Shown: positions 471 through 30,404 of the stretch, piece after piece
Numbering within the stretch: position 1 is the first letter of the stretch
Layout of the letters: every line of letters begins with the position of its first letter
Source: Acidobacteriota bacterium
GTDB lineage: Bacteria > Acidobacteriota > Vicinamibacteria > Vicinamibacterales > 2-12-FULL-66-21
Assembly (NCBI GenBank): GCA_003222675.1
Contig: QHWT01000063.1
Span: 70,456-134,455, forward strand
Reading direction: 5' to 3'
Length of the DNA stretch: 64,000 bases
The notes under the pieces: generated by a model
The model's database searches: none
The model's input: only the letters and a program-made list of their open reading frames with translations
What the model was told of the DNA's origin: nothing
Made by a program: the position numbers and the translations under genes

Positions 471-660
471 CTATTCGTGGCGCAACGCGACGATGGGTTC
501 GACGCGAATCGAGGCCAACGAGCGTATAGGGCACGTAGACCTGCGGCGCGGGCGGCTCCTGCGGACCCTGGTTGGTGATGTCCGACACGATGCCGACGAT
601 CGTGAAGGTTGGATCTGCAACCGGGAGTGGTTTCAGTGGCGCCCAGCGCACGCTTGTCAC
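471..660 (-). pseudogene. Remnant of an ADOP/MacB-type ABC transporter permease
   Basis: Two pieces of one permease family sit next to each other in different minus-strand frames. The 5' piece reads ADPTFTIVGIVSDITNQG and PPAPQVYVPYT, which matches the periplasmic MacB_PCD region of ADOP permeases. It is followed immediately by RSLASIRVEPIVALRHE and a stop at 473-471, the standard ADOP C-terminus. The roughly 250 or more residues between them, including the last transmembrane helices, are missing, and so is everything upstream. This is a decayed copy left by internal deletion. Compare the nearly complete family member at 7681-10042. Confidence 0.65.
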
Positions 661-1000
661 GTACGATTCACGCAGAGCGCGCGGAGACCGCGGAGGAAAA
701 CCAAGCCACGGATCACTCAGATTTACACGGATTCAGTCACGGCGTCGTCGCAGTTACGCGAAGAAGACAATGAAAGAAGCGTGCTGCCCAGGCGCATTCG
801 CCGCCGCGCTTCGCGCGGCAGGAGGTCACGCGAGACTACGAATACAAGCGGCGCAGAAGAATAGGCCGCTTGTATTCGTATCTCGGGTGACCTCCATTAC
901 GCCCGCCGAAGGCGGGCGCGGCGAATGCGCGGGTGGCAGCATTCTAGGCGCCTTTGCGCCTTTGCACCTGCGCGTGCGATCGTCTTCTCGCGACTCACAC
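656..1000. repeat. Structured intergenic element, copy 1 (cloverleaf core with inverted-repeat ends)
   Basis: No gene lies in this 345-bp stretch. The left end (about 664-700) is approximately the reverse complement of the right end (about 955-992): both are cgcggag/cgcagag-type sequence. The core folds on paper into four stems. A 13-bp outer stem pairs 792-804 with 918-930. Arm A (805-817) has a ttc loop. Arm B pairs about 823-852 with 866-893. Arm C (900-918) has 8 bp and a gaa loop. A second copy at 10071-10418 has the same stems with different bases, and a simpler third copy lies at 43931-44217. Confidence 0.7.
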
Positions 1001-1032
1001 CGCCACGTGCAGGCGCAGTCTGGTTCGACCTC

Positions 1033-2892
1033 TCAGTGTTGTGGAAGCGCGAACGCCACGATTTTGGATCCAGGCGGGGAAACGAGCAGTCCGTCGCCGC
1101 CTGCCGCAATCACGACGTACTGACGATCGTTTCGTCCCATGAACGTCATCGGCGTCGCGTGGGCGCTCGCTTCGAGCGTCGTTTCCCACAGCTGGGCCCC
1201 CGTCTGCGCGGCGAACGCGCGAAAGCGCTTGTCGATGGTTCCACCGATGAAGATGAGCCCGCTCGCGGTAGCGATCGTGCCGCCGATGTTGGGTGTTCCG
1301 GTCTTGGAGAAACCGCGCGCCTTCAGATCATCGAATTCCCCCAGCGGCACTCGCCACACGATCGCGGCGCGGTTGACGTCGACGGCGACCAGCTCGCCGA
1401 ATGGCGGCGCGGAGCATGGCACGCGCGTCTCCGGATTCCAGAATCGTCCGATCGGCCGGCCCCACGGCGTCGTCCGCTTGTAATCGACGCGGCCCGTCTT
1501 CCCATCGGTTCGCCGTTCCATTCTCGCGACCTGGCCGAGATTCATGATGTTCGCGAACACGAGTCCGCGACCCGGATCGTATGACAATCCGCTCCAGTTG
1601 CCGCCGCCAAGCGTGCTCGGAAACATCACCATCGTCCGGTCGACGGTCGGTGGTGTGTACATGCCCTTCGTGAACATCTTATTGGTAGCCCACAGGTCCC
1701 TGCAGTACGCGGCGTGCTCGGCCGTCAGTGAATAGAAATCCCTGGCCGGATCGAAAGTGGTCCGCGAGAGCGGCGGCGGTTGCAGAGGAAACGGCTGCGT
1801 CGGCCACGTCGCTTCACCAGGCACGTCGGTCTGCGGCACCGGGCGTTCTTCGAGACCGAACAGCGGTTCGCCGGTCACGCGATCGAAAATGAACAGCAGG
1901 CTCATCTTCGTGGTTTGCGCAACCGCGGGGATCGTGCGGCCGTCTCGCTTGACGTCGATCAGCGTCGGCGCCGCCGGCAAGTCCCAGTCCCAGATGTCGT
2001 GGTGAACAAGCTGCTGAAACCATTTCAGCTTGCCCGTAGTCGCATCGAGCGCGATCAAACAATTGCCGTACAGGTTCTGCCCCTTCCGATCGGCACCGTA
2101 GAAGTCCGATGTTGGCGATCCCGTTGGCGCGAACACCAGCCCGCGCTCGACGTCGACGGTCATGAAAGACCAGGCGTTCGTGCCCGAACGGTTCTTCCAG
2201 CTCTCCTCGTCCCACGTCTCGACGCCGGGTTCGCCGGCGCGAGGAACGGTGTGAAATGACCAGAGCAGCTTGCCGCTGATCGCGTCCCACCCTCGAATGT
2301 CGCCGTAGAGACCGAGGCTCGGCTCGCCCTCTTCGTTGGCGCCGCCCGTGATGACGATGTCCTTGTAGATGACGGGCGGGGTAATCAACATGAACTTGCC
2401 GTCGACGTCTCCCCGTACGCTGGTCTTCAAGTCGACGAAACCATGCTCGCCGAAGTCGGTGACGAGCGCGCCGGTCCGCGCATCGAGTGCGATCATGCGG
2501 CCATCGCCCGCGGCCGAATACAACCGCGGCCGTACGGTGCCAGTGCCCGGCCAATAGGCCACGCCTCTCCGGCTGACTGCGCCGCTCGCGCTCTTGTATT
2601 TCCAGATTGGTGTGCCGGTTTCCGGCTCGAGCGCATATACGGTCGATCCACCGGTCAGGTACATCATGCCGTCCACGACCAACGGCGTGACTTGAAGATC
2701 CAGGCTGCCCGTGTCGAAGGTCCAGGCCTGCTGTAAGGCCGCGACGTTCCGGGAGTCGATCTGCGTCAGCGGCGAAAAGCGTTGCGCGCCCGGATCGCGT
2801 CCGAACGCATGCCACTCGCCGTCAGTATGCGGCCCGGGCGCCAGGGACGCTGTTGCAAGGAGAAGTCCCGCCAGTACGAGTTTCAGCTTCAT
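1033..2892 (-). CDS. PQQ-dependent dehydrogenase (quinoprotein glucose dehydrogenase-like)
   Basis: A 619-residue secreted quinoprotein. Signal peptide MKLKLVLAGLLLATASLAPG is followed by WHAFGRDPGAQRFSPLTQID, the usual N-terminus of periplasmic PQQ alcohol/glucose dehydrogenases. Repeated propeller-blade motifs (VYALEPETGTPIWKY, MIALDARTGALV, LIALDATTGKLKWFQQ) mark an eight-bladed PQQ-binding propeller; HHDIWDWDLPAAPTLID is characteristic of the glucose-dehydrogenase branch. It lacks the N-terminal membrane helices of E. coli Gcd, so it is probably soluble in the periplasm and passes electrons to quinone or a cytochrome. The substrate (sugar or alcohol) cannot be read from the sequence. The gene stands alone between repeat elements. 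Confidence 0.88.
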   Translation of the reverse strand: MKLKLVLAGLLLATASLAPGPHTDGEWHAFGRDPGAQRFSPLTQIDSRNVAALQQAWTFDTGSLDLQVTPLVVDGMMYLTGGSTVYALEPETGTPIWKYKSASGAVSRRGVAYWPGTGTVRPRLYSAAGDGRMIALDARTGALVTDFGEHGFVDLKTSVRGDVDGKFMLITPPVIYKDIVITGGANEEGEPSLGLYGDIRGWDAISGKLLWSFHTVPRAGEPGVETWDEESWKNRSGTNAWSFMTVDVERGLVFAPTGSPTSDFYGADRKGQNLYGNCLIALDATTGKLKWFQQLVHHDIWDWDLPAAPTLIDVKRDGRTIPAVAQTTKMSLLFIFDRVTGEPLFGLEERPVPQTDVPGEATWPTQPFPLQPPPLSRTTFDPARDFYSLTAEHAAYCRDLWATNKMFTKGMYTPPTVDRTMVMFPSTLGGGNWSGLSYDPGRGLVFANIMNLGQVARMERRTDGKTGRVDYKRTTPWGRPIGRFWNPETRVPCSAPPFGELVAVDVNRAAIVWRVPLGEFDDLKARGFSKTGTPNIGGTIATASGLIFIGGTIDKRFRAFAAQTGAQLWETTLEASAHATPMTFMGRNDRQYVVIAAGGDGLLVSPPGSKIVAFALPQH

Positions 2893-2910
2893 AAGGGGTT
2901 TGCCTTCCAG

Positions 2911-3060
2911 CTAAAGCCGGAAGCCACATGGAACACTACTGGAAGCCACATGGAACACTACTTGTGGCTTCCGCCTTCCGCCTTGGCGCGAAGCGCTTCG
3001 GCGGACCGCCGCAGCCTTGGCGGAGGCTGGTGAGGCGGAAGGACAGCCTGAAGTAAAACT
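2911..3060. repeat. Intergenic repeat with 22-bp tandem duplication and inverted arms
   Basis: The 22-bp unit ggaagccacatggaacacta(ct) occurs twice head to tail (2919-2940 and 2941-2962). The following tgtggcttccgcctt is the inverse of the preceding aaagccggaagccaca, so the segment can form a hairpin. The right part (about 3012-3050) contains ggcggaaggacagcc in inverse orientation to ctgtccttccgcc-type sequence, also found near 40466 and 26335. It separates the quinoprotein gene from the amidohydrolase. Confidence 0.6.
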
Positions 3061-3073
3061 ACAATCTGTGCCG

Positions 3074-4378
3074 ATGCGCAAGCTGTTTCGTCCGGTCGCC
3101 TTTCTCGTCGTCGTCGCGGTCGGTCCGCTCGCTCTGCATGCGCTCGGCGTCCAGCCGCGATCGCTCGTCCTCGACAACGTCCGCATCATCGACGGCACGG
3201 GGGCCGCACCGATCGAGCAGGGACGGTTGGTGATCGAAGCCGATCGGCTCGCTCGAGTAGGGCCCGCCGAGAAGGTTCCGGTGCCTGCGAACGCGGAGCG
3301 TGTCGATCTGTCCGGCCGAACGATCGTGCCAGGCCTCATCGATCTCCACTTTCATATCGAGAACGATCCGAAGCTCGCGCTGCGACAGCTCAGTCATGGG
3401 ATCACCGCGTTTCGCGATCCCGGGCAGTGGGACGAGAAGTTCGTCGAGCTGCGGCGCATGATCGCCGCCGATCACCTCGCCGGGCCTCACATCTTCACCG
3501 CAGGACCGCACATCGATGGTGAACATCCCGCATATCCGGCTGATTCGGTCGTGGCACGGGACCCCGACGAGGCGCGCCGCGAGGCAGAAATCAACGTGCG
3601 CAACGGCGCGTCAGCGCTGAAGATTTACTTCAGGCTTCCGTTCGCGAGCGCGAAGGCGGTCATCGACGTCTGCAACGCCCACCACATCCCGTGCACGGCG
3701 CACCTCGAGATTCTCGAGGCGCGTGAGCTGATCGCCGCGGGCCTCCACGGGATCGAGCACGTCACCTCGTTCGGGACGAGCATCGTGCCGCGCAACCAGG
3801 CGGAAGTCTACCGGCAGGCGGTGCTCGCGGACAACGATGCGCGCCGCGACGGACGCTACAGGCTTTTTGCGAGCGCCAATCTCGACGGCCCGGAGGCGCA
3901 GGCTCTCTACGCCGTCCTCCGCGAGCGGAAGCCGTGGCTCGACGCCACGCTCGCGGTGTTCGAACGACGGGCCGATCATCCTGAAGAAGGGGTGAAGCCC
4001 GAAATGGTGCCGGTGATGGCGGCCGGCTTCGAGAAGATGAAGCAGTTGACGCGACGCGCGGGACTGGAAGGGGCCCGTCTCGTGATGGGTGGGCACTCCA
4101 CCGTGCCGTTTGCGTCGCGTGGCGAGGCGCCCTGGCGCGAGCTGGAGCTGCTCGTCGAAAGCGGGTTGTCTCCGCTCGAAGCCATAACGGCCGCCACGGG
4201 CACGGCAGCCGGCTTCCTCTATCGCAGCGATGAACTCGGAAATTTACGGTCCGGCCTGAAGGCCGATCTCGTCGTGCTCCATGACGATCCGAGCCGTGAC
4301 ATCGCGGCCATGCGGACCGTTGAACGTGTGATGGTCGGCGGCACGTGGGTCGATATCGCGCGGTATCGGACCTATTAA
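3074..4378 (+). CDS. Secreted amidohydrolase family protein
   Basis: A 434-residue metal-dependent hydrolase. I take the ATG at 3074 because it directly precedes a good signal peptide (MRKLFRPVAFLVVVAVGPLA); an upstream in-frame start at 3017 would begin inside the repeat. It contains LVLDNVRIIDGTGAAP (small beta-sandwich), IVPGLIDLHFHIE (the HxH metal pair), CTAHLE and GIEHVTSFG (later histidines), and a C-terminal LGNLRSGLKADLVVL return to the sandwich. The usual final aspartate region (GTDS-like) reads MGGHSTVP here, so the last metal ligand may differ. Substrate unknown; relatives act as imidazolonepropionase-like or dipeptidase-like enzymes. Confidence 0.85.
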   Translation: MRKLFRPVAFLVVVAVGPLALHALGVQPRSLVLDNVRIIDGTGAAPIEQGRLVIEADRLARVGPAEKVPVPANAERVDLSGRTIVPGLIDLHFHIENDPKLALRQLSHGITAFRDPGQWDEKFVELRRMIAADHLAGPHIFTAGPHIDGEHPAYPADSVVARDPDEARREAEINVRNGASALKIYFRLPFASAKAVIDVCNAHHIPCTAHLEILEARELIAAGLHGIEHVTSFGTSIVPRNQAEVYRQAVLADNDARRDGRYRLFASANLDGPEAQALYAVLRERKPWLDATLAVFERRADHPEEGVKPEMVPVMAAGFEKMKQLTRRAGLEGARLVMGGHSTVPFASRGEAPWRELELLVESGLSPLEAITAATGTAAGFLYRSDELGNLRSGLKADLVVLHDDPSRDIAAMRTVERVMVGGTWVDIARYRTY

Positions 4379-4460
4379 CCTTGTATGGCGATGCTTTCGA
4401 GCCGCCATGGCGCCGGGTCTAACGGCCCCGCCTGCATTCGAGAAGCATTGAACATTGGCG

Positions 4461-5504
4461 TTACAGAGCGACCACCTGACCGGTGCGCACCGATTCATCG
4501 GCGGCCATGACGATGCGCAGGCTCTTGACGCCGTCGTTCATGTGCGCGGTGAGATCCAGGTCTTCGTCGATCGCCTTCAACAGGTAGCGCTGCTCGCGCT
4601 CGCAGAGCGCGTCGTGATCGGGCTCGTCCGCCATGTTGATGCGCTCGTCCGGCTTCGACATGTCCGCGTGATGCCACAGGATCTGGTTCGTCTTCGTGTG
4701 CGCGTTGATGTCGTCGGACTTGACCGAGCCGGCGGTCTCCGCCATCACAATCGACACCGATCCCTTCGGGCCGATGACGTCTTTGACGAAGAACGCCGTC
4801 TCGCTCATCATCGGGCCCCATCCGGCCTCGTACCATCCGATCGACCCATCGTCGAACGCGACCTGCAGCATTCCGTAGTTGTAGAGCGGCACCTCGTCGC
4901 TGAGCTGCGCACCCATCGCGTGCACGCGCGTGGGTTTCGCCGGCGTCATCTGGCACATGATGTCGACGTAGTGGACGCCACAGTCGACGATGGGAGGGAA
5001 CGATTCCAGCAGCCGCTTGTGCCACGCCCAGGTCTCGCCGTTTGATTGCTGATTCAAGTTCATGCGGAACACGAGCGGCGTCCCGAGCTGACGGGCGATC
5101 TCCACGAATTTGATCCACGACGGATGCTGGCGGAGGATGTAGCCGATCACCAGCTTTTTGCGCGTCCGCTTCGCGGCGGCCACGACCTGCTCGGCGCTTT
5201 TCACTGTCAAGGCGAGCGGCTTCTCCACGAACACGTCGGCGCCCGCCTCCATTGCTTTCATGGCGTACTCGGCGTGCGTATCCGGCAGCGTGTTCACCGA
5301 CACGACGTCGGGGCGGAGCTCCGTGAGCGCCTGCTCGAACGTCGAGTAGCGGCGGGCGTCAGCGAGGGCTGGCGGCAGTTGCTTGTCGGCAATGTGCCGC
5401 GTACAGACACCAGCGACCTCGAACTCCGGAATGCGCGTGTAGGCGAGCGCGTGCGACATCCCCATGTTGCCAAGTCCGACAACCAGCACACGCTTCTTGT
5501 TCAT
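4461..5504 (-). CDS. Gfo/Idh/MocA family oxidoreductase
   Basis: A 347-residue NAD(P)-dependent sugar dehydrogenase. The start at 5504 (MNKKRVLVVGLGNMGMSHAL) has AGGAG seven bases upstream, better than an in-frame start 15 bases earlier. The Rossmann motif VGLGNMG is at residues 8-14, the EKPLALT motif follows near residue 95, and DCGVHYVDIMCQM lies in the C-terminal alpha/beta domain where the catalytic His sits. Such enzymes oxidise or epimerise sugars, inositols or glycosides. It is the last gene of a minus-strand set with an SDR and a TIM-barrel-like protein, which suggests oxidation of a sugar or polyol, but the substrate is unknown. Confidence 0.88.
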   Translation of the reverse strand: MNKKRVLVVGLGNMGMSHALAYTRIPEFEVAGVCTRHIADKQLPPALADARRYSTFEQALTELRPDVVSVNTLPDTHAEYAMKAMEAGADVFVEKPLALTVKSAEQVVAAAKRTRKKLVIGYILRQHPSWIKFVEIARQLGTPLVFRMNLNQQSNGETWAWHKRLLESFPPIVDCGVHYVDIMCQMTPAKPTRVHAMGAQLSDEVPLYNYGMLQVAFDDGSIGWYEAGWGPMMSETAFFVKDVIGPKGSVSIVMAETAGSVKSDDINAHTKTNQILWHHADMSKPDERINMADEPDHDALCEREQRYLLKAIDEDLDLTAHMNDGVKSLRIVMAADESVRTGQVVAL

Positions 5505-5555
5505 GTAGTCGCTCCTCACGAGCAGCCCGAGCGGCCGCGCTACGAATACGACCTT

Positions 5556-5628
5556 GGATCCGCGAGATCCGTGGGATCCGTGGGATCCGTGGGATCCGTG
5601 GGATCCGTGGGATCCGTGGGATCCGTGG
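5556..5628. repeat. 10-bp tandem repeat (gatccgtggg), about 7 copies
   Basis: The decamer gatccgtggg repeats about seven times with almost no divergence; only the first copy (ggatccgcga) differs. It ends one base before the stop codon of the SDR gene at 5629. Unlike other spacer arrays in this window it has no inverted second arm. The near identity of the units suggests recent expansion by slippage. Confidence 0.9.
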
Positions 5629-6414
5629 TTAGAAATCTTCCAACGTCAGCTCTCGCGCCATCACGATGTTACCGGCGGTCAGCCCGCAATCAACGGGCAG
5701 CACCACGCCGGTGATTGCTGAGGCCGCGTCGGAGGCCAGGAACGCGACGGCGCGCATGACCTCGATCGGCTCGACGATGCGACCGAGCGGATACCAGCGC
5801 GTGAGCTGCGATAGCACCTCCCGGTTGCGGGAGAGGCGCTCGTCCCAGATCGGCGTACGCACGGTGCCGGGGCACACGATATTCGCACGGATGTTATATC
5901 GGCCGAACTCCAGCGCGAGCGCCTTCGTCAGGCTGATCAGACCGGCCTTGCCCGCGCTGTAGGCCGCATCGCCGAGCGCGGCGAGTCCGTTCACCGATCC
6001 GATGTTCACGATCGCGCCGCCACGCCGCGCCCTCATGCCCGGCAGCACCGCGTAGGCACAATTGTACGCGCCATTCAGATTGACGTGGACGTCCTCGTCG
6101 AAACCCTCCGGCGTCGTGTGCTCGAGGCTCGGATGCCTCGTGACGCCGGCGTTGTTGATCAGGATGTCGACGCGGCCGAGCGCGGACGTGGCTTTCGCAA
6201 ACGCCGATCCGACGGCCGTCGCATCTCCGATATCGACGACAGCGGCCTCAATTCTGATTCCGTCGCCTCGGAGTTGTTCGCCGAATGCGGTGACTGCGTG
6301 GCTCTTGTCGAACGCCGCAATCGCCGCGCCCTGCTTGCCGAAGTACTTGCACAGCTCTCGCCCGATGCCGCCCGATGCGCCCGTGATGGCGACGACTTTG
6401 TCTCGGAATTCCAC
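5629..6414 (-). CDS. SDR family NAD(P)-dependent oxidoreductase
   Basis: A 261-residue classical short-chain dehydrogenase. It has the TGASGGIG cofactor motif near residue 11, the NNAG motif, and the catalytic Ser-Tyr-Lys set in IVNIGSVNG and YSAGKAG. I place the start at GTG 6414-6412, six bases after a GGAGG site; the longer reading from TTG 6420 would put that site directly against the start codon. The GTG begins two bases after the stop of the upstream gene at 6417, so the two are very likely co-transcribed and translationally coupled. Substrate probably a sugar, polyol or keto acid, judging from the neighbouring Gfo/Idh/MocA gene. Confidence 0.87.
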   Translation of the reverse strand: MEFRDKVVAITGASGGIGRELCKYFGKQGAAIAAFDKSHAVTAFGEQLRGDGIRIEAAVVDIGDATAVGSAFAKATSALGRVDILINNAGVTRHPSLEHTTPEGFDEDVHVNLNGAYNCAYAVLPGMRARRGGAIVNIGSVNGLAALGDAAYSAGKAGLISLTKALALEFGRYNIRANIVCPGTVRTPIWDERLSRNREVLSQLTRWYPLGRIVEPIEVMRAVAFLASDAASAITGVVLPVDCGLTAGNIVMARELTLEDF

Positions 6415-6416
6415 GA

Positions 6417-7598
6417 TCAACCTCCGAAGACGGCGAGCGCGTCAGCAATCCACGCCAGGTTGTTCCGGCGCACGTGACCGTAGTTGTAGAACGCGATGCC
6501 CGAGACGCCCGCGTCGCGAAGCGCCGTCGCGGCGGCGACAAGTTCGCTGCGGCTCTGCAGATCGGGAAAGCCAGGACGCAGGATGCCACGCAGCGTTCCA
6601 GCGCCCCGCAATCGCCGCCGGATATCGTAAATGTCCGCGCGAACGCGCTCGGCGCTCGGCTCATAGAACGATGCTTCGATAATGCCCGCGGCGTGCGCCA
6701 GCGCGTGAAGATCGCTTCCTTCATACCATGCCCCGCTGGTTGGCCGCGCGACCGACGGGATAACTGCCACGGTCGCATCTGCTCGCACCGCTGCACGGAT
6801 CTCGCGGACAAGCGATGTGACGACGTCGCAGCGCCAGTGGAGAAAGCTCGCCAGCGTTGTGTCAGTGGCGACGTCACTCAACCAGAACGCGTCGGCCATG
6901 TCCTCCGGGAAATCATCAATGGCTTCCAGGTACGTATCGAAGTCCTCACGTACCCGAGCCCTGAGAGGCGCCGCGTCGATTCCGGCAGCCTGCGCGTTCG
7001 TGACGCAATGATCGCAGAAGCAGAGGCCAAGCCTGTTCTCGATCCACCTGTTTGGCTTGACCATCGCGAATTCATGGTGAAAGCCGTGCGCATATGGCAG
7101 GAAGCCGGGCGTTTCGAGCGTGATGCCGGCGACGGGGTAGATGTCGGTCACGTCCTTGCACAAGGCGATCGCGTACTCGCGCGCGTCGGGTGCCGACGGG
7201 CAGAGGCTGTAGACATACCGATCGCCGAACGCGTTTCGGACCGTAGACTGCGGATACGTTTCTCCGAGACGTGAGTTGTGGAGCAGCACGAGCCAGACAT
7301 TGACGGCGACGCGCCCGTCACTCGTCAGCTCGCGGAGAATGTCGCGCTCCCGAGTCAGCTTGCTCACGACGGGTCTAATCGAGCCGTAACGGGAAGAGCC
7401 GGCCGTGAAGTAGACGGTGCCGTCCTCAGGGAAATAGACCTTGCCGGCCGATCCGTGTGGACGCAGGAATTTTCCCGCATGGTAGCTGCCGGCAATCGTC
7501 ATCGTGTCGAGGCCGAGCGCCTTGACCGATTCGATGACCGTCGACACCCCTTCGTCGGCGAGGTCCCACGGATAGGCGTAGAGGGCGCGGTATTTCAT
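6417..7598 (-). CDS. Uncharacterised protein, probable TIM-barrel glycoside hydrolase-like fold
   Basis: A 393-residue cytoplasmic protein. I start it at ATG 7598 (MKYRALYAYPWDLADEGVST); the open frame extends 32 codons further but overlaps the region upstream of the divergent permease. I recognise a conserved but unnamed family through phrases such as SYHAGKFLRPHG, VYFPEDGTVYF, VAGITLETPGFLPYAHGFHH and LGLCFCDHCVTNAQ. Alternating hydrophobic strands with acidic and aromatic ends, and a CxxC pair (FCDHC), resemble family-10-like barrel hydrolases. No catalytic residues can be assigned with confidence. It heads the operon with the SDR and Gfo/Idh/MocA genes. Confidence 0.6.
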   Translation of the reverse strand: MKYRALYAYPWDLADEGVSTVIESVKALGLDTMTIAGSYHAGKFLRPHGSAGKVYFPEDGTVYFTAGSSRYGSIRPVVSKLTRERDILRELTSDGRVAVNVWLVLLHNSRLGETYPQSTVRNAFGDRYVYSLCPSAPDAREYAIALCKDVTDIYPVAGITLETPGFLPYAHGFHHEFAMVKPNRWIENRLGLCFCDHCVTNAQAAGIDAAPLRARVREDFDTYLEAIDDFPEDMADAFWLSDVATDTTLASFLHWRCDVVTSLVREIRAAVRADATVAVIPSVARPTSGAWYEGSDLHALAHAAGIIEASFYEPSAERVRADIYDIRRRLRGAGTLRGILRPGFPDLQSRSELVAAATALRDAGVSGIAFYNYGHVRRNNLAWIADALAVFGG

Positions 7599-20222: not shown

Positions 20223-22376
20223 ATGAAGTTCATGAGACTGCTCTCTGCCGCGATCGTCGCATACGGATTCGCGGCGGCCGCCGTAACGGTCAACACGAGC
20301 ACACAGCAGGAAACAGGCCAGGCCGTTCGCATCGACCCGGATGACATCGGGGGCGTGGTGAGCGGTCCGCAAGGACCCGAAGCGGGCGTGTGGGTGATTG
20401 CCGAGACCGCCGATCTTCCGACGCGCTTCGTGCGGATCGTCGTCACCGACGATCGCGGCCGATACGTGATCCCCGACCTGCCGAAAGCCATGTACACGGT
20501 GTGGGCCCGTGGATATGGATTGATCGATTCTGCGAAGTCGCACGCGATGCCGGGGCAGACGGTGAACCTGAGAGCGCTCATCGCGCGCGACCCGCGCGGC
20601 GCTGCGCGGTACTATCCCTCGGGCTATTGGTTCTCGCTTCTCAACCCGCCGTCCCCGAAAGAATTTCCCGGCACGGGACCCGACGGCAACGGCATTGCGC
20701 CCGGTCTGAAGACCCAGGCCGAGTGGCTCCGGCTGGTGAAATCGGGCGGCTGCCTTTCGTGTCACGGGCTTGGCACGCCAGGCACGCGCGAGATTCCGGC
20801 GGGCCTCGGTGTCTTCGATTCCTCGTCCGATGCCTGGATGCGCCGCGTTCAGTCCGGCCAGGCGGGCGCAAACATGATGAGCACGCTCAACCAGCTCGGC
20901 GCCAAGCGCACGCTCGCCGTGTTTGCGGACTGGACGGATCGCATCAAGGGCGGCGAAGTGCCGCCGGCGCCGCCGCGTCCGCAGGGGATCGAGCGCAACG
21001 TGGTGATCACCGAGTGGGATTGGGCGGATCCGAAGGCGTACCTGCACGACGAGGTCTCGACGGATCGGCGAAACCCCACGCTCAACCCGAATGGATTGAT
21101 CTACGGCGCGCTCGAATTGAGCGCCGATTATCTGCCCGTCCTGGATCCGGTTCACAACACGATCAGCCAGGTGAAGCTGACGGTGCGCGATGAGGCGACC
21201 GAGCCGGCCCCGGGTTCCGCGATGCTGCAGCCGTCGCCGTATTTCGACAAGGAAGTCATCTGGACGAGCCGCAACAACGTGCACAATCCGATGTTCGACG
21301 AGAAGGGACGCGTCTGGATCACATCGGCGGTACGTCCGCCCGACAATCCGGCGTTCTGCAAGGAAGGCTCGGAGCATCCGTCGGCGAAGCTGACGCCGCT
21401 TCAGCGCGCCAGCCGGCACCTGGCCGTCTACGATCCGAAGACGCAGAAGCTCACGCACATCAGCACGTGTTTCGGCACGCACCACCTGATGTTCGCGGAA
21501 GACGCGAACAACACGCTCTGGACGAGCGGCGGCGGACAGGTCGTCGGCTGGTTGAACCGGAAGATGTTCGACGAGACCGGCGACGAGGAGAAGTCGCAGG
21601 GCTGGACCGTGCTCATCATGGATACCAACGGCAACGGCAAGCGCGACGACTACGTGGAACCGAACGAGCCAGTCGATCCGACGAAGGACAAGCGGCTCGG
21701 CGCCGCCTTCTATTCGGTCGCGCCTGCGCCTGACGGATCCATCTGGGGCTCGGTGCTTGGCTTCCCCGGCGCGATCGTGCGCCTCAATCCCGGAACGAAT
21801 CCTCCGGCGACCGCGCTCGCGGAAGTCTACGAGCCGCCAGTCGACAAGCACGCCTACTCGCCTCGCGGCATGGACATCGATCGCAACGGCGTCGCGTGGG
21901 TCGCGCTCGCCAGCGGCCATATGGCGAGCTTCGATCGGCGGAAGTGCAAGGGGCCGCTGAATGGTCCGTCGGCAACAGGCAAGCAGTGTCCGGAAGGTTG
22001 GACGCTGTATACCGAGCCGCTGCCACAGATGAAAGGGGTGAGCGACCCTGGCAGCGCCGAGTCCAGCTACTACACCTGGGTCGATCAGTTCGACACGCTG
22101 GGTCTCGGCGCGAACACGCCAATCAATACCGGGAACGAATCCGAAGGGCTGCTCGCGTTGAAGGACGGCAAGTTCGTCGTGCTCCGCGTGCCGTATCCGA
22201 CGGGCTATTACACGAAATGGATGGACGGCCGCATCGACGATCCGAAGGGCGGATGGAAAGGCCGCGGGATCTGGTCCACCGTCAGCACGCGCACCCCCTT
22301 CCACATGGAAACCGGCAAGGGGACCACGAGCAAGGTGATTCATTTCCAGATGCGACCGGATCCGCTGGCGCGGTAG
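20223..22376 (+). CDS. Regulatory-like domain / cytochrome c / Vgb-like beta-propeller fusion
   Basis: A 717-residue secreted multidomain protein. Signal peptide (MKFMRLLSAAIVAYGFAAAA), then a carboxypeptidase-regulatory-like module (IGGVVSGPQGPEAGVWV to YVIPDLPKAMYTVWARGYG). A c-type heme site CLSCH is at residues 177-181. From about residue 250 a virginiamycin B lyase-like propeller follows, with blade motifs WTSRNNVHNPMFDEKGRVWI, THHLMFAEDANNTLWTSGG, APDGSIWGSVLGFPGAIVRL and MDIDRNGVAWVALASGHMA. It is probably periplasmic. The architecture recurs in Acidobacteriota, but I know of no assigned function. A heme suggests a redox role, perhaps an oxidation fed by the upstream cupin. Confidence 0.8.
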   Translation: MKFMRLLSAAIVAYGFAAAAVTVNTSTQQETGQAVRIDPDDIGGVVSGPQGPEAGVWVIAETADLPTRFVRIVVTDDRGRYVIPDLPKAMYTVWARGYGLIDSAKSHAMPGQTVNLRALIARDPRGAARYYPSGYWFSLLNPPSPKEFPGTGPDGNGIAPGLKTQAEWLRLVKSGGCLSCHGLGTPGTREIPAGLGVFDSSSDAWMRRVQSGQAGANMMSTLNQLGAKRTLAVFADWTDRIKGGEVPPAPPRPQGIERNVVITEWDWADPKAYLHDEVSTDRRNPTLNPNGLIYGALELSADYLPVLDPVHNTISQVKLTVRDEATEPAPGSAMLQPSPYFDKEVIWTSRNNVHNPMFDEKGRVWITSAVRPPDNPAFCKEGSEHPSAKLTPLQRASRHLAVYDPKTQKLTHISTCFGTHHLMFAEDANNTLWTSGGGQVVGWLNRKMFDETGDEEKSQGWTVLIMDTNGNGKRDDYVEPNEPVDPTKDKRLGAAFYSVAPAPDGSIWGSVLGFPGAIVRLNPGTNPPATALAEVYEPPVDKHAYSPRGMDIDRNGVAWVALASGHMASFDRRKCKGPLNGPSATGKQCPEGWTLYTEPLPQMKGVSDPGSAESSYYTWVDQFDTLGLGANTPINTGNESEGLLALKDGKFVVLRVPYPTGYYTKWMDGRIDDPKGGWKGRGIWSTVSTRTPFHMETGKGTTSKVIHFQMRPDPLAR

Positions 22377-24704: not shown

Positions 24705-25430
24705 ATGAAGAAATGGCTCCTGCGCGGCGCCGCCCTGATCATCGTCTGTTACCTCGCGCTCTTCAGCACCGTGATGGCCGCGATGCTGCAGACGCCGGAA
24801 CGGTTCGGCGCGTTCATGAAGCACATGCCCCCGGCCCTCGTCTGGGCCACGCTGCCCGCGCCGCGGATGTGGCTCTGGGCGCGGAAGGGCACGCTCGCCG
24901 AGGGAGAACGTGCACCCGACTTCAACCTGCGCACGGCGAAGGACCGCCACCGGCGCGTCGCGCTCTCGTCGTACGAGGGTCAGCGGCCCGTCGTGCTCGT
25001 GTTCGGCAGCTACACCTGACCGCCGTTTCGCCGGGCGGTGCCCGCGCTCAACAAGCTTTACCGCGACTACCGCGATCGCGTGGCGTTCCACGTCGTGTAT
25101 ATCGAGGAAGCGCACCCGATCGATGCCTGGCAGGTTTCGGACAACAAGAAGGACGCCGTGCTCGTCGCATCTACGAAGACGGCGGACGAGCGCGACAAGG
25201 TCGCGAACGTCTGCGTCGTCAAGCTGGGGATCGAGCTGCCGGCGCTGATCGACGAACCAGACAACCGCGTCGAGCGCGCGTATACGGCATGGCCCGATCG
25301 ACTCTATGTGATTAACCGCGACGGCACGATCGCCTACAAGAGCGCGGCAGGACCCTTTGGATTCAAGCCTGAGGACGTCGAAGCGGCACTCAAGCGGATC
25401 CTGCCGGCGCCTGTTCCCGTTGCACACTAG
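24705..25430 (+). CDS. Deiodinase-like thioredoxin-fold selenoprotein (in-frame TGA = Sec105)
   Basis: Translated straight through the TGA at 25017-25019, this is a 241-residue membrane-anchored protein. Helix 5-27 (LLRGAALIIVCYLALFSTVM) is followed by GERAPDFNLRTAKDR, VVLVFGSYT-U-PPFRRAVPAL and VAFHVVYIEEAHPIDAWQ. The GS-x-T-U-PPF and YIEEAH motifs are those of iodothyronine deiodinases (T4_deiodinase family). The His lies 32 residues after Sec, the spacing of Sec126 and His158 in DIO1. The frame continues uninterrupted and conserved after the TGA, and a bacterial-type SECIS hairpin follows at 25032-25044. Bacterial relatives often have Cys here. It probably works as a thiol/selenol peroxidase-like or reductase enzyme at the membrane; thyroid-hormone chemistry is not implied. 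Confidence 0.85.
25032..25044 (+). promoter_or_regulatory. Candidate bacterial SECIS hairpin for UGA 25017
   Basis: CGGGC (25032-25036), GGU loop (25037-25039), GCCCG (25040-25044): a perfect 5-bp stem. The apical loop begins 18 bases after the UGA and its first base is G. This fits the published description of bacterial SECIS elements (short upper stem, small loop with an early G, loop about 16-37 bases downstream of UGA). A shorter alternative stem (ccgcc/ggcgg) also exists just upstream. Confidence 0.6.
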
Positions 25431-27540: not shown

Positions 27541-28575
27541 TCACGACCCCTGCTGCGCGAATACTTTGTAGCGGTTCTCGATCTCCTGCGGCGTGGCCTT
27601 GCCGCCGAGGATCAGCACGCGATACCGGAACGTCACCGACTTCCCGGGTTCGAGCGTGAGGTCGAGCGACTTCTTGCCGTTGGTGAATACCGATTCGCCA
27701 AGCGGGTTCGCCGCGAACAATCCGTATCCGCGCGCGTGCCAGTAGGTGGGGAAGCCGGGGTTCGACGGGTTGTCGAGAATCGCGAGCGTGACCGGCTCGT
27801 TGTCGACGGTGCCGCCGAGCAGCGTCCATCGTCCGCGCGTCCCCCACACCGCGTCCCCCTTCAACCCTTCGCTGCTGACGTATTCCCCGGTGACGCCGGT
27901 GTTGTCGAGCACAGGCGTGTTGATTGGCTGGCCGGACGCGTCGGTGAGGATTTCCGCCTTGTCCGCCGGCTGCTCGAGCCCGCGCGCGACCCGCATGCCG
28001 ATGAACGCCTCCTTGTTGTCCTTGAACACGACCTTTTCGTCGCCGGCGGTCAACGTCGTGGTGCGATCGATCACGCGCGAGTCGGCGGTGCCGCTGAACA
28101 CGAATAGCGTACGCTCGTGCAGGATGACCTTCTTGTCGAACCGGACCCAGTCGGTCTCGACCGCGAGTTCCCCGGTGTCGCCACTTTTCGCCTCGACGAT
28201 CCTGCGCTGCAGGATCGTGCCCATCTTCGGCGCCTGCTTGATCGGGATCGCGTCGGAGTTGTTCCAGAAGTCGAGGCCATTCACGTCGCCGTGGTTGAGC
28301 CACAGCCCGACGTGATGCGGATGATCGACGCGCTCGCCTTGTCGCGGCTCCAGTGGAAATCCGCGCGTGACGATCGTGCCTTTGGCCGTGCGGAGCGGAT
28401 AGAGTGTAGGTTTCTTGAGGGTGGTCGGCCAGATATACGAGGTGAAGGGCTTGCCGTCGATCGTGACGTCGACCCGCCGCCGGGCTTCGTTCGGCGTCAC
28501 CTGCACACGCGCCTTGTCGGGCGCGCCGCTCATCAGCAGCGGCAGGACGAGGGCGCCAAGTATCGTGATGCGCAT
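27541..28575 (-). CDS. DUF6807 (PmoA-like) family secreted protein
   Basis: A 344-residue secreted protein with signal peptide MRITILGALVLPLLMSGAPD. The family marks are DGKPFTSYIWPTTLKKPTLY, PLRTAKGTIVTRGFPL, GERVDHPHHVGLWLNHGDVN, DFWNNS, FKDNKEAFIGMRVARGLEQP and GRWTLLGGTVDNEPVTLAIL. The DHPHH motif suggests a metal or ligand site on a galactose-mutarotase-like beta-sandwich. It is divergent from the DUF1080 gene across a 61-base spacer that holds a perfect 16-bp palindrome, so both are probably controlled by one carbohydrate-responsive repressor. Confidence 0.85.
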   Translation of the reverse strand: MRITILGALVLPLLMSGAPDKARVQVTPNEARRRVDVTIDGKPFTSYIWPTTLKKPTLYPLRTAKGTIVTRGFPLEPRQGERVDHPHHVGLWLNHGDVNGLDFWNNSDAIPIKQAPKMGTILQRRIVEAKSGDTGELAVETDWVRFDKKVILHERTLFVFSGTADSRVIDRTTTLTAGDEKVVFKDNKEAFIGMRVARGLEQPADKAEILTDASGQPINTPVLDNTGVTGEYVSSEGLKGDAVWGTRGRWTLLGGTVDNEPVTLAILDNPSNPGFPTYWHARGYGLFAANPLGESVFTNGKKSLDLTLEPGKSVTFRYRVLILGGKATPQEIENRYKVFAQQGS

Positions 28576-28599
28576 CGCGTTGGACCCTTTCGATGTGTT

Positions 28600-28615
28600 A
28601 CTTTAGCGCTAAAGT
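28600..28615. promoter_or_regulatory. Palindromic operator ACTTTAGCGCTAAAGT (LacI-type)
   Basis: A perfect 16-bp palindrome with a central CG step lies in the 61-base divergent spacer between DUF6807 (start 28575) and DUF1080 (start 28637). The centre CG and the A/T flanks are typical of LacI-family operators. The same symmetry with a changed inner pair (ACTTTAACGTTAAAGT) is found at 46493-46508. No LacI-family gene is in the window. Confidence 0.65.
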
Positions 28616-28636
28616 TTTACCATTTCCGGAGCGACT

Positions 28637-29386
28637 ATGTCACTACGAACCAGTCTTGCCGTTGCCTCGCTGCTCACCGCCTCCACAGTCATCACGTTGG
28701 CTGCCGGCCGCCAGGCCGCGGCCCCCAATACGCTCACCGATGCGGAAAAGAAAGCCGGCTGGTCGTTGCTCTTCGACGGCAAGTCGCTCGACGGCTGGCG
28801 CGGCTACAAGAAGACCGATGCGTCCGGCACACGGTGGAAGATCGAGAACGGCTGGCTGACGCTGCCGCCCAGCACTGGTGAGGACACGAAGGGCGCGCGC
28901 GACATCATCTCGAAGGACACCTTCGATCAGTTCGATCTCATGTTCGAGTGGAAGATCGCACAGGGCGGCAACAGCGGCGTGAAGTATTTCGTCCTCGAGG
29001 ACCAGGACGCGGCGATCGGCCACGAGTACCAGGTGATCGACGACGAGCGGCATCCCGACGCGAAGATCGGCCCGCACCGCCAGACCGCCGCGTTCTACGA
29101 CGTGTTCCCCGCGTCGAATCGTCCCATCAAGCCCGCCGGTGAACTGAACACGTCACGTATCCTCGTGCAGGGCAACACCGTCGAGCACTATCTGAACGGC
29201 ACGCGCGTGCTGCGGTACACGCTCGACAGCCCGGAGCTCCGCGCGGCGGTCGCGAAGAGCAAGTTCAAGGACGTCCAGCGCTTCGGCAAGCTCCAGAACG
29301 GACACATCCTGCTGCAGGATCACGGCAACCAGGTCTGGTTCCGTAATATCAAGATCCGCCGCACCGGAAACAGCGCGACGCGGTAG
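28637..29386 (+). CDS. DUF1080 protein (3-keto-disaccharide hydrolase family)
   Basis: A 249-residue secreted protein with ribosome site GGAG before ATG 28637 and signal peptide MSLRTSLAVASLLTASTVIT. The concanavalin-like 3-keto-disaccharide hydrolase domain is evident: GWSLLFDGKSLDGWRGYKK, WKIENGWLTLPP, TFDQFDLMFEWKIAQGGNSG, GHEYQVIDDERHPDAK, GELNTSRILVQGNTVEHYLN and GHILLQDHGNQVWFRNIKIR. Known relatives cleave 3-keto-glycosides made by Gfo/Idh-type oxidation. The very next gene, eight bases on, is a Gfo/Idh/MocA oxidoreductase, which fits that scheme. Confidence 0.88.
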   Translation: MSLRTSLAVASLLTASTVITLAAGRQAAAPNTLTDAEKKAGWSLLFDGKSLDGWRGYKKTDASGTRWKIENGWLTLPPSTGEDTKGARDIISKDTFDQFDLMFEWKIAQGGNSGVKYFVLEDQDAAIGHEYQVIDDERHPDAKIGPHRQTAAFYDVFPASNRPIKPAGELNTSRILVQGNTVEHYLNGTRVLRYTLDSPELRAAVAKSKFKDVQRFGKLQNGHILLQDHGNQVWFRNIKIRRTGNSATR

Positions 29387-29393
29387 GCAGCCC

Positions 29394-30404
29394 ATGCGAG
29401 TCGGCCTGCTCGGCGCGGGCAACATCAGCGACACCCACGCCCGCGCCGCGCGGGCCATCCCCGGTGTCGAGATTGCCGCGGTCTGCGGCGCGAACCGCGA
29501 GAAGGTCGCGCGGCTGGCACACGCGCATGGCGGCGTCGCCTACGACGCGATCGACGCGTTCCTCGCCCATCGGCCGATGGACATCGTGGCCATCGGCAGC
29601 CCGTCGGGTCTCCACGCCGACCACACGATCGCCGCGATGCGCCGCGGTCTCCACGTGCTCGTCGAGAAGCCGCTCGACGTGACGAGGGCGAAGGTGGATA
29701 CGGTGATCGCCGAAGCGGCGCGCGCCGGCGTGAAGGTGGGCGTGTTCTTCCAGGATCGGTTGCGGCCCGACGTGGCCGCGATGAAGGAACTCATTGATGC
29801 GGGTCGGCTCGGCAAACCGGTCTTCGCCTCCGGTCGCGTGAAGTGGTACCGCCCGCCCGAGTATTACGGCACGTCGCGCTGGCGCGGGACGTGTGCGCTC
29901 GACGGCGGCGGCGCGCTGATGAACCAGGGAATCCACACCGTCGATTTGCTGCAGTGGCTGTTCGGCCCGGTCGCCCGAGTGTGTGCGCGAACGGCGACGC
30001 GGATTCACGCGATCGAGGCGGAGGACACCGCGGCCGCGGTGCTCGAATTCGAGAGCGGCGCGCTTGGCGTAATCGAGGCGACCACGTCCGTGTTTCCCGG
30101 CTACGCGCGGCGCGTGGAGCTCACGGGCGCGGAGGGCACGCTCATTCTCGAAGGCGATCGGCTCGTCGCGGCCGACTTGAGAAATGCCGTCGACGTCCGG
30201 ACGGCTTCCCCAACCGATCTCGAAAGCACCGCCTCCCCGGTCGTCAGCGACTGCACCCCGCACCAGCGCGTGTTCGAAGACTTCATCCGCGCAATCGAGA
30301 CGAACGGCACGCCGGCCTGCGACGCGCGCGAAGGACGGCACAGCGTCGCGATCGTGGAAGCGATCTATCGATCGGCACGCGACGGAGGATTTCAAGAGCC
30401 ATGA
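29394..30404 (+). CDS. Gfo/Idh/MocA family oxidoreductase
   Basis: A 336-residue NAD(P)-dependent dehydrogenase: MRVGLLGAGNISDTHARAAR (Rossmann GAGNIS), then VAIGSPSGLHADHTIAAMRR, HVLVEKPLDVT (the E-K-P motif), GGGALMNQGIHTVDLLQWLF with the catalytic-region His, and GYARRVELTGAEGTLILEGD. No export signal is seen, so it is cytoplasmic. It sits between the DUF1080 gene (8-base gap) and a cupin gene (ATGA overlap), one operon behind the 28600 operator. Oxidation of glycosides to 3-keto forms, or processing of the released keto sugar, is the likely role. Confidence 0.88.
   Translation: MRVGLLGAGNISDTHARAARAIPGVEIAAVCGANREKVARLAHAHGGVAYDAIDAFLAHRPMDIVAIGSPSGLHADHTIAAMRRGLHVLVEKPLDVTRAKVDTVIAEAARAGVKVGVFFQDRLRPDVAAMKELIDAGRLGKPVFASGRVKWYRPPEYYGTSRWRGTCALDGGGALMNQGIHTVDLLQWLFGPVARVCARTATRIHAIEAEDTAAAVLEFESGALGVIEATTSVFPGYARRVELTGAEGTLILEGDRLVAADLRNAVDVRTASPTDLESTASPVVSDCTPHQRVFEDFIRAIETNGTPACDAREGRHSVAIVEAIYRSARDGGFQEP

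Follow-up and report, generated by a model that had tools for sequence, protein, structure and literature searches.

A 64,000-nucleotide stretch of an Acidobacteriota bacterium genome (assembly GCA_003222675.1, contig QHWT01000063.1, forward-strand positions 70,456 to 134,455; hereafter the window, in which positions are counted) contains a gene for a deiodinase-fold protein whose single in-frame TGA is very likely decoded as selenocysteine (Sec). Both the UGA recoding and the deiodinase fold are strongly supported. From ATG 24705 to TAG 25428-25430 the gene forms one frame, with its sole break at TGA 25017-25019, and both the Pfam match and the AlphaFold 2 (AF2) model span this codon, bearing out a preliminary description of this DNA in which the frame had been read as continuous. 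Since the TGA is present in all of the best 80 related loci, in addition to this match and model, the interrupted frame is not due to chance. The match to PF00837 (T4_deiodinase) scores 110 bits against a curated cut-off of 27 (E 1.4e-31), and the AF2 model of the full-length protein has a predicted local distance difference test (pLDDT) value of 96.6. When this predicted model was compared with structures in the PDB, Dio2 and Dio3 ranked highest, with 171-172 residues aligned, and it has a fold with the deiodinase insertion, as in PF00837. As had also been foreseen, ordinary gene calling with table 11 splits the gene into two products (24705-25019, 104 residues; 25038-25430, 130 residues). 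The window's genome has one deiodinase gene.

The TGA column, its hairpin and the selenocysteine machinery

A search of named genomes yielded 171 loci, the best 80 of which were kept. At the Sec column, TGA occurs in all 80 of these and TGG in none, so that homologues lacking Cys or Sec there, named in the preliminary description as grounds for doubt, are not what the best loci present. Their record titles refer to Acidobacteriota groups with the sole exception of L088, titled Nevskia soli (Pseudomonadota), which nests in the acidobacterial clade, is probably mislabelled or contaminated, and has a Cys-type AhpD-like gene upstream. In a second sample of 396 genomes spread evenly over the phylum, with relatives called at E 1e-20, only 18 genomes (the window's included) carry a deiodinase relative, and the distribution of the gene is therefore patchy. 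A single TGA is present in sixteen of these relatives, with an additional TAG in G169; the relative in G076, which looks damaged, has two, and one relative has none.

Exchange between Sec and Cys was examined in 98 full-length database relatives chosen by active-site motif, in which the Sec column holds Cys in 53, Trp in 42, Arg in 2 and Gly in 1. On a tree of 66 rows, with the Sec column left out of the alignment, the Cys label among rows with Cys170 requires six changes, at least four of them forced by the starred branches. The expected Sec/Cys alternation is thus found in these protein rows, at four or more places on the tree. All 42 Trp rows are of JGI source, 39 of them coming from the 120 database matches listed, and, judging from the protein rows, Trp at this column most likely stems from TGA being read under a different genetic code. 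JGI-called entries with Trp (P0003-P0028 and others) or Gly (P0051) probably represent TGA read by codes 4 and 25. Among the same 120 matches listed, 35 are 132-144 residues long and mostly correspond to the part past the TGA; because gene callers split or mistranslate the family, a broad bacterial branch of the deiodinase fold has been under-seen.

Bacterial Sec insertion sequence (bSECIS) elements have been described as carrying G at the first two loop positions and lying 16-37 nt beyond the UGA (PMC13188914; literature is cited here by PMC identifier, each item for its accessible passages). The hairpin in the window satisfies these constraints, with a GGU loop 17 nt from the TGA. Across the subfamily (87 sequences, 82 distinct), the stem GGG-[A/C] GGU [U/G]-CCC with its neighbours sits at this same distance; 79 of the 82 distinct sequences have the complete set of five core pairs, and the loop is GGT in 79 and GGC in 3. 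With random synonymous codons, the core pairs form in a mean of 1.7% and a maximum of 7.3% of sequences (500 draws). Codon shuffling within each amino acid, which ignores common descent, gives a mean of 85% for the core pairs and 50% for the outer pairs, the latter being observed in 78/82 (95%), and 0/2000 shuffles reach the observed value in either case. Compensatory change is visible as well: Glu-Val GAG..GTT (A-U pair, 73 distinct sequences) is replaced by Ala-Val GCG..GTG (C-G pair, 5 sequences), with the mismatched GAG..GTG occurring once, and the third base of the Arg109 codon covaries with the third base five codons on, mostly as G with C/T or C with G. Three observations weigh against the hairpin. 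The window stretch alone folds no better than shuffled sequence (z 0.04), plain minimum free energy (MFE) folding shows the hairpin form in 61 of 83 loci, and in a divergent subfamily of 10 sequences the MFE folds vary, with no common structure established. The SECIS-like hairpin noted earlier at the right distance is real as a feature of the family, despite the weak folding of the single stretch. In Rfam, the window gave no match at gathering level, and region 24900-25200 returned only a chance microRNA (E 0.23).

The window's genome, a 99.9% complete assembly of 7.16 Mb in 152 contigs, encodes the machinery required for such decoding. A search for selA, selB, selC and selD, proposed earlier as a check with the absence of selB or selC as the refuting outcome, recovered all four: tRNA-Sec with anticodon TCA on contig C63 (61 bits), selA (539 bits), selB (335 bits) and selD (344 bits). 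Since the selD gene (G000:C36:78330-79259, L021) holds one in-frame TGA, its product is probably itself a selenoprotein. Within the phylum-wide sample, selB is present in 17 of the 18 deiodinase-bearing genomes (the window's included) versus 237 of the 378 others (Fisher p 0.003), and the remaining genome, G322, is probably identical with that of L077, where a partial selB scores 209 bits. In the set of 49 named genomes, which overlaps the sample in a few genomes, selB lies above the cut-off in 46, that partial gene accounts for one, and the remaining two (L048, L050) have none. By means of the hairpin, SelB with Sec-tRNA would decode the UGA.

A physical link between client and machinery is seen in 5 of the 80 loci (L100, L105, L110 from Acidicapsa dinghuensis, L122 and L124), where selD, selA and selB frames lie upstream of the deiodinase gene. 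These sel genes were identified by frame clustering and confirmed by profile hidden Markov models (HMMs) for L110 and L124; ARAGORN detected tRNA-Sec in four of the five loci, L122 being the one where it was not found. The cassette runs, within about 6 kb, from tRNA-Sec on the opposite strand through selD, selA, selB and an AhpD-like frame to the deiodinase; in L110 it occupies 586-6696 with gaps of 18, -14, 108 and 16 nt. Acidicapsa dinghuensis is thus a named strain that holds the deiodinase gene and the machinery together. Selenocysteine formate dehydrogenase was also sought: 10 matches in 7 of 12 genomes (the window's included) at 1e-60 contained no in-frame stop.

The alternative that the TGA is a genuine stop, through gene decay, a sequencing error or the presence of two separate proteins, is extremely improbable. 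TGA is an ordinary stop in the host code, and two relatives (L025/G076 and L024/L046) look damaged; against this, the codon is found in every one of the best 80 loci, the frame is maintained together with the hairpin and its covarying codons, and the genome encodes the selenocysteine machinery.

Active site, candidate resolving cysteines and predicted membrane anchor

The preliminary description had placed the TGA at the redox position, and the motif FGSYT-U-PPFR reads accordingly. It had further located a His 32 residues past Sec: His137 of YIEEAHPIDAW stands at this distance from position 105, as does His202 from Sec170 in Dio3. The active site was compared in an alignment of 198 rows (196 bacterial and 2 animal), partly picked by the Ser/Thr motif and not by Tyr, Glu or His. 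Tyr132, Glu135 and His137 are present in 196/196 bacterial rows, Trp142 in 192/195 and Arg163 in 194/195, while Ser102, Thr104 and PPF are invariant in the motif-picked rows and likewise in the A2 set, which was chosen without a motif filter. Ser102, Thr104, Tyr132, Glu135, His137, Trp142 and Arg163 correspond to Dio3 Ser167, Thr169, Tyr197, Glu200, His202, Trp207 and Arg225, respectively.

Residues of the thyronine pocket are a different matter. The Dio3 Phe258 column holds Pro in 195/195 bacterial rows, the window's included; the Arg275 column is mostly Pro, with Ala in the window protein and Arg outside the five commonest letters (193 bacterial rows); and the His219 column is His in only 8/195 bacterial rows and Thr in the window protein. 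The earlier label "iodothyronine-deiodinase-like" therefore holds for the fold and the catalytic proton-relay core, whereas the thyroid-hormone pocket is not shared. In Dio3 itself, Phe258Pro, Arg275Ala, Glu200Ala, Thr169Ala and Ser167Ala all reduce activity (PMC7506546).

Compared with the animal deiodinases (mouse Dio2, 9h48; Dio3, 4tr3), the window protein lacks both the proximal and the distal cysteine and has Cys170 instead. The proximal Cys124 of Dio1, needed for glutathione reduction (PMC9141512), corresponds to Tyr103. Cys170 occurs in 83/83 A2 rows, and the same column is Leu in Dio2 and Dio3. In Sec rows with Phe at -2 (n=4), Cys153 takes the place of Cys170, and in those with Cys at -2 (three bacterial rows and Dio3), neither 153 nor 170 is Cys; L139 has Cys at 192 only, and L141 has two candidate cysteines. 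Nine Phe-type Cys forms (P0262, P0272, P0290, P0294, P0295, P0301, P0310, P0311 and P0331) lack Cys153 and are free of further cysteines across those catalytic-domain columns that they have in common with the window protein, so that, within these columns, the helper cysteine of the Phe group goes when Sec goes. Taken together, these patterns suggest that Cys170, Cys153 and the Cys at Sec-2 may act as resolving cysteines. Exceptions to Cys170 are L024/L046 (one gene, with Trp142 changed to Gly and Cys170 to Trp) and L025 (a second TGA and a broken frame), both of which look damaged, through either decay or assembly error.

An N-terminal hydrophobic helix was correctly recognized at the outset, and a hydrophobic 19-mer near the N-terminus is present in 171 of 192 bacterial rows. 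In these 171 rows, the flank before the 19-mer is more positive than that after it in 126, less positive in 19 and equal in 26, the window protein having +3 before and +1 after its helix. Because of this positive-inside charge bias, the catalytic domain is predicted to be periplasmic, and the original suggestion that the helix mirrors eukaryotic topology was not upheld: the catalytic domains of DIO1 and DIO2 are cytosolic, opposite to the orientation predicted here.

Features of the deiodinase-fold selenoprotein gene in the window
Feature	Position	Strand	Details
Deiodinase-fold selenoprotein gene	24705..25430	+	241 residues, Sec at 105, TAG stop
N-terminal hydrophobic helix, predicted membrane anchor	24708..24785	+	residues 2-27; AF2 helix, hydropathy, charge bias
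Catalytic Trx/deiodinase domain	24888..25409	+	residues 62-235
In-frame TGA, probable selenocysteine 105	25017..25019	+	TGA in related loci, sel genes, Cys relatives
Bacterial SECIS-type hairpin	25030..25047	+	core stem 25032-25036/25040-25044; outer pairs 25030-25047, 25031-25046
Apical loop GGT (GGU)	25037..25039	+	17 nt past TGA
YIEEAHPIDAW motif (Tyr132, Glu135, His137, Trp142)	25098..25130	+	proton-relay and loop-D edge residues common with Dio2/Dio3
Cys170 codon, candidate resolving cysteine	25212..25214	+	invariant in A2; Leu in Dio2/Dio3

Possible chemistry of the enzyme

With regard to function, we lean towards a membrane-anchored Sec enzyme that reduces a small molecule and is reset by Cys170. 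Helix 2-27 is predicted to anchor the enzyme in the inner membrane, leaving its catalytic domain on the periplasmic side. By analogy with the animal deiodinases, the Sec105 selenolate, served by Ser102, Thr104, Tyr132, Glu135 and His137, would remove a halogen, or a soft electrophile comparable to it, from a small, probably aromatic molecule, which would then be protonated. Cys170 would attack the oxidised selenium to form a selenenyl-sulfide, and an external thiol system would subsequently reduce this bond. Deiodinase-type two-electron reduction, with Cys170 presumably resolving selenium, is favoured because the relay core and the loop edge are kept and both the peroxiredoxin Pro and a CxxC motif are missing. 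Thyroid hormone is an unlikely substrate because the residues equivalent to Dio3 Arg275, Phe258 and His219 are replaced.

The main rival is peroxide reduction, perhaps together with an AhpD-like selenoprotein: Sec105 would reduce hydroperoxides via a selenenic acid, Cys170 would resolve it, and an AhpD-like or Dsb-type partner would recharge the enzyme. We consider this unlikely, though still a serious contender. Pfam AhpC-TSA and Redoxin also match the window protein, and AhpE and Bcp are among the best fold matches below the deiodinases; however, Dio2 and Dio3 score about four Z units above AhpE, and the Tyr, Glu, His and Trp of the deiodinase loop-D edge are preserved. Peroxiredoxins such as AhpE and Bcp carry the motif PxxxT/SxxC, whereas its Pro, at -7 from the Sec column, is missing from all 198 rows (196 bacterial, 2 animal), which have Leu, Met or Val there.

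Genomic context also bears on this rival, as mycobacterial AhpC, a peroxiredoxin, has AhpD as its partner. AhpD-like frames occur near 12 of the 96 loci with flanks, and in 11 of these cases TGA occupies the U position of CxxU; in the cassette loci the frame between selB and the deiodinase has this TGA (PF02627 match for L110). Nine of the 12 share the strand of the deiodinase gene and are no more than 0.9 kb away from it. A further AhpD-like CPF-U frame is found in the window's genome on contig C33, near 22077-22229 (L152:1192-1719, minus strand; CMD match 25.4 bits); it shares 69% identity with the AhpD-like frame next to the deiodinase in L106 and lies on a different contig from the deiodinase. 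On the opposing side, the nine close neighbours include six that resemble one another at 80% or more and probably represent one clade, and the deiodinase domain is predicted to be periplasmic while the AhpD-like proteins, inspected by eye, have no export signal. Outside the cassette loci, AhpD-like selenoprotein frames (CPFU, CPYU, CVYU) lie near the deiodinase in L049, L060, L095, L097 and L106.

A role as a ResA/DsbE-like thiol-disulfide reductase, acting on protein disulfides or mixed disulfides of the envelope, is quite improbable: neither CxxC nor UxxC is present (U-P-P-F in the window, with Phe108 at +3 and Phe there in 83/83 A2 rows), and the deiodinase insertion would cover the site. 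Least probable of all these activities, and very remote, is true iodothyronine deiodination of environmental thyroid hormone or iodotyrosine. Fold, catalytic core and the UPP sequence agree with Dio2 and Dio3, but the three pocket residues and both helper cysteines are replaced, two of the replacements (Phe258Pro and Arg275Ala) being among those that lower Dio3 activity (PMC7506546), and thyroid hormone is unexpected in such bacteria, a point likewise made in PMC1088965.

A broader and rather doubtful proposal extends the small-molecule reductase reading to the whole group. In this proposal, the deiodinase fold of Acidobacteriota would have given rise to envelope selenoenzymes that plausibly dehalogenate natural organohalogens by reduction, the resolving cysteine having shifted between subfamilies to three or more places (Sec-2, 153 and 170); the AhpD-like and deiodinase proteins, the two clients of the compact selC-selD-selA-selB cassette in one clade, would form a redox pair even where their genes are separated, as they are in the window's genome.

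Relation to known proteins and genomic surroundings

The bare existence of a bacterial deiodinase-like selenoprotein is not new, because Sec and Cys forms were reported in 2005, with a guess at a redox role (PMC1088965; its table counts of 4 and 6 are taken as Sec and Cys sequences, respectively), and the mention of earlier metagenomic reports in the preliminary description was accordingly justified. A 2008 study (PMC2398784) counts 22 such bacterial selenoproteins and lists no motif in its table, whereas two reviews (PMC9312934 and PMC13188914) give the motif as UxxC, and the latter describes such proteins as largely uncharacterized in function. With the marine-metagenome sequences, the window protein shares PF00837, a bacterial SECIS element and the occurrence of both Sec and Cys forms; from the review-listed prokaryotic type it is set apart, in terms of published motif descriptions, by UxxF and the invariant Cys170. 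Searches of open-access literature listings, together with the accessible passages of PMC1088965, PMC13188914, PMC9312934, PMC1794560 and PMC2398784, yielded no description of deiodinase selenoproteins from Acidobacteriota, of the Cys170 type or of a sel-ahpD-deiodinase cassette. What looks new here is the invariant Cys170 in place of the animal helper cysteines, with the cysteines of sister groups located elsewhere.

Further differences from the animal enzymes include an extra conserved segment (approximately residues 31-62) and, on the 66-row tree, a branch of length 2.1 that separates the Dio chains from every one of the 64 bacterial rows. The 347-position NCBIfam model NF038285 ("deiodinase family protein") matches residues 67-229 over its positions 179-340 with 194 bits, below its 250-bit cut-off, so that the window protein falls outside this family as defined; the first 178 positions of the model are unmatched. 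Peroxiredoxins (AhpE, Bcp) and ResA-type oxidoreductases differ from the window protein by their Pro at -7 and CxxC, respectively. With its catalytic core kept but a different hormone pocket and other helper cysteines, the bacterial family can be set beside the animal deiodinases to test which parts serve selenium chemistry and which serve the hormone.

A phage or plasmid origin of the gene was considered and rejected: 72,556 plasmid records gave zero matches, and a pattern search of viral contigs was also without a match. Beyond the sel genes and AhpD, no widely recurring neighbour was seen among frames of at least 90 residues, and the largest neighbour-frame clusters consist of frames overlapping the deiodinase gene itself. 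Three loci (L028, L029 and L031) contain further thioredoxin-like frames with an active-site stop (TGA), in the contexts GSYS-U-PIN and GCLT-U-PPF, possibly belonging to other selenoprotein families. In the window, the deiodinase gene is flanked by a DMP19-like gene and a DUF4440 gene, and adjacent genes at 27541-30404, encoding a DUF6807 protein, a 3-keto-disaccharide hydrolase and a GFO/IDH/MocA oxidoreductase, perhaps form a sugar-breakdown cluster.
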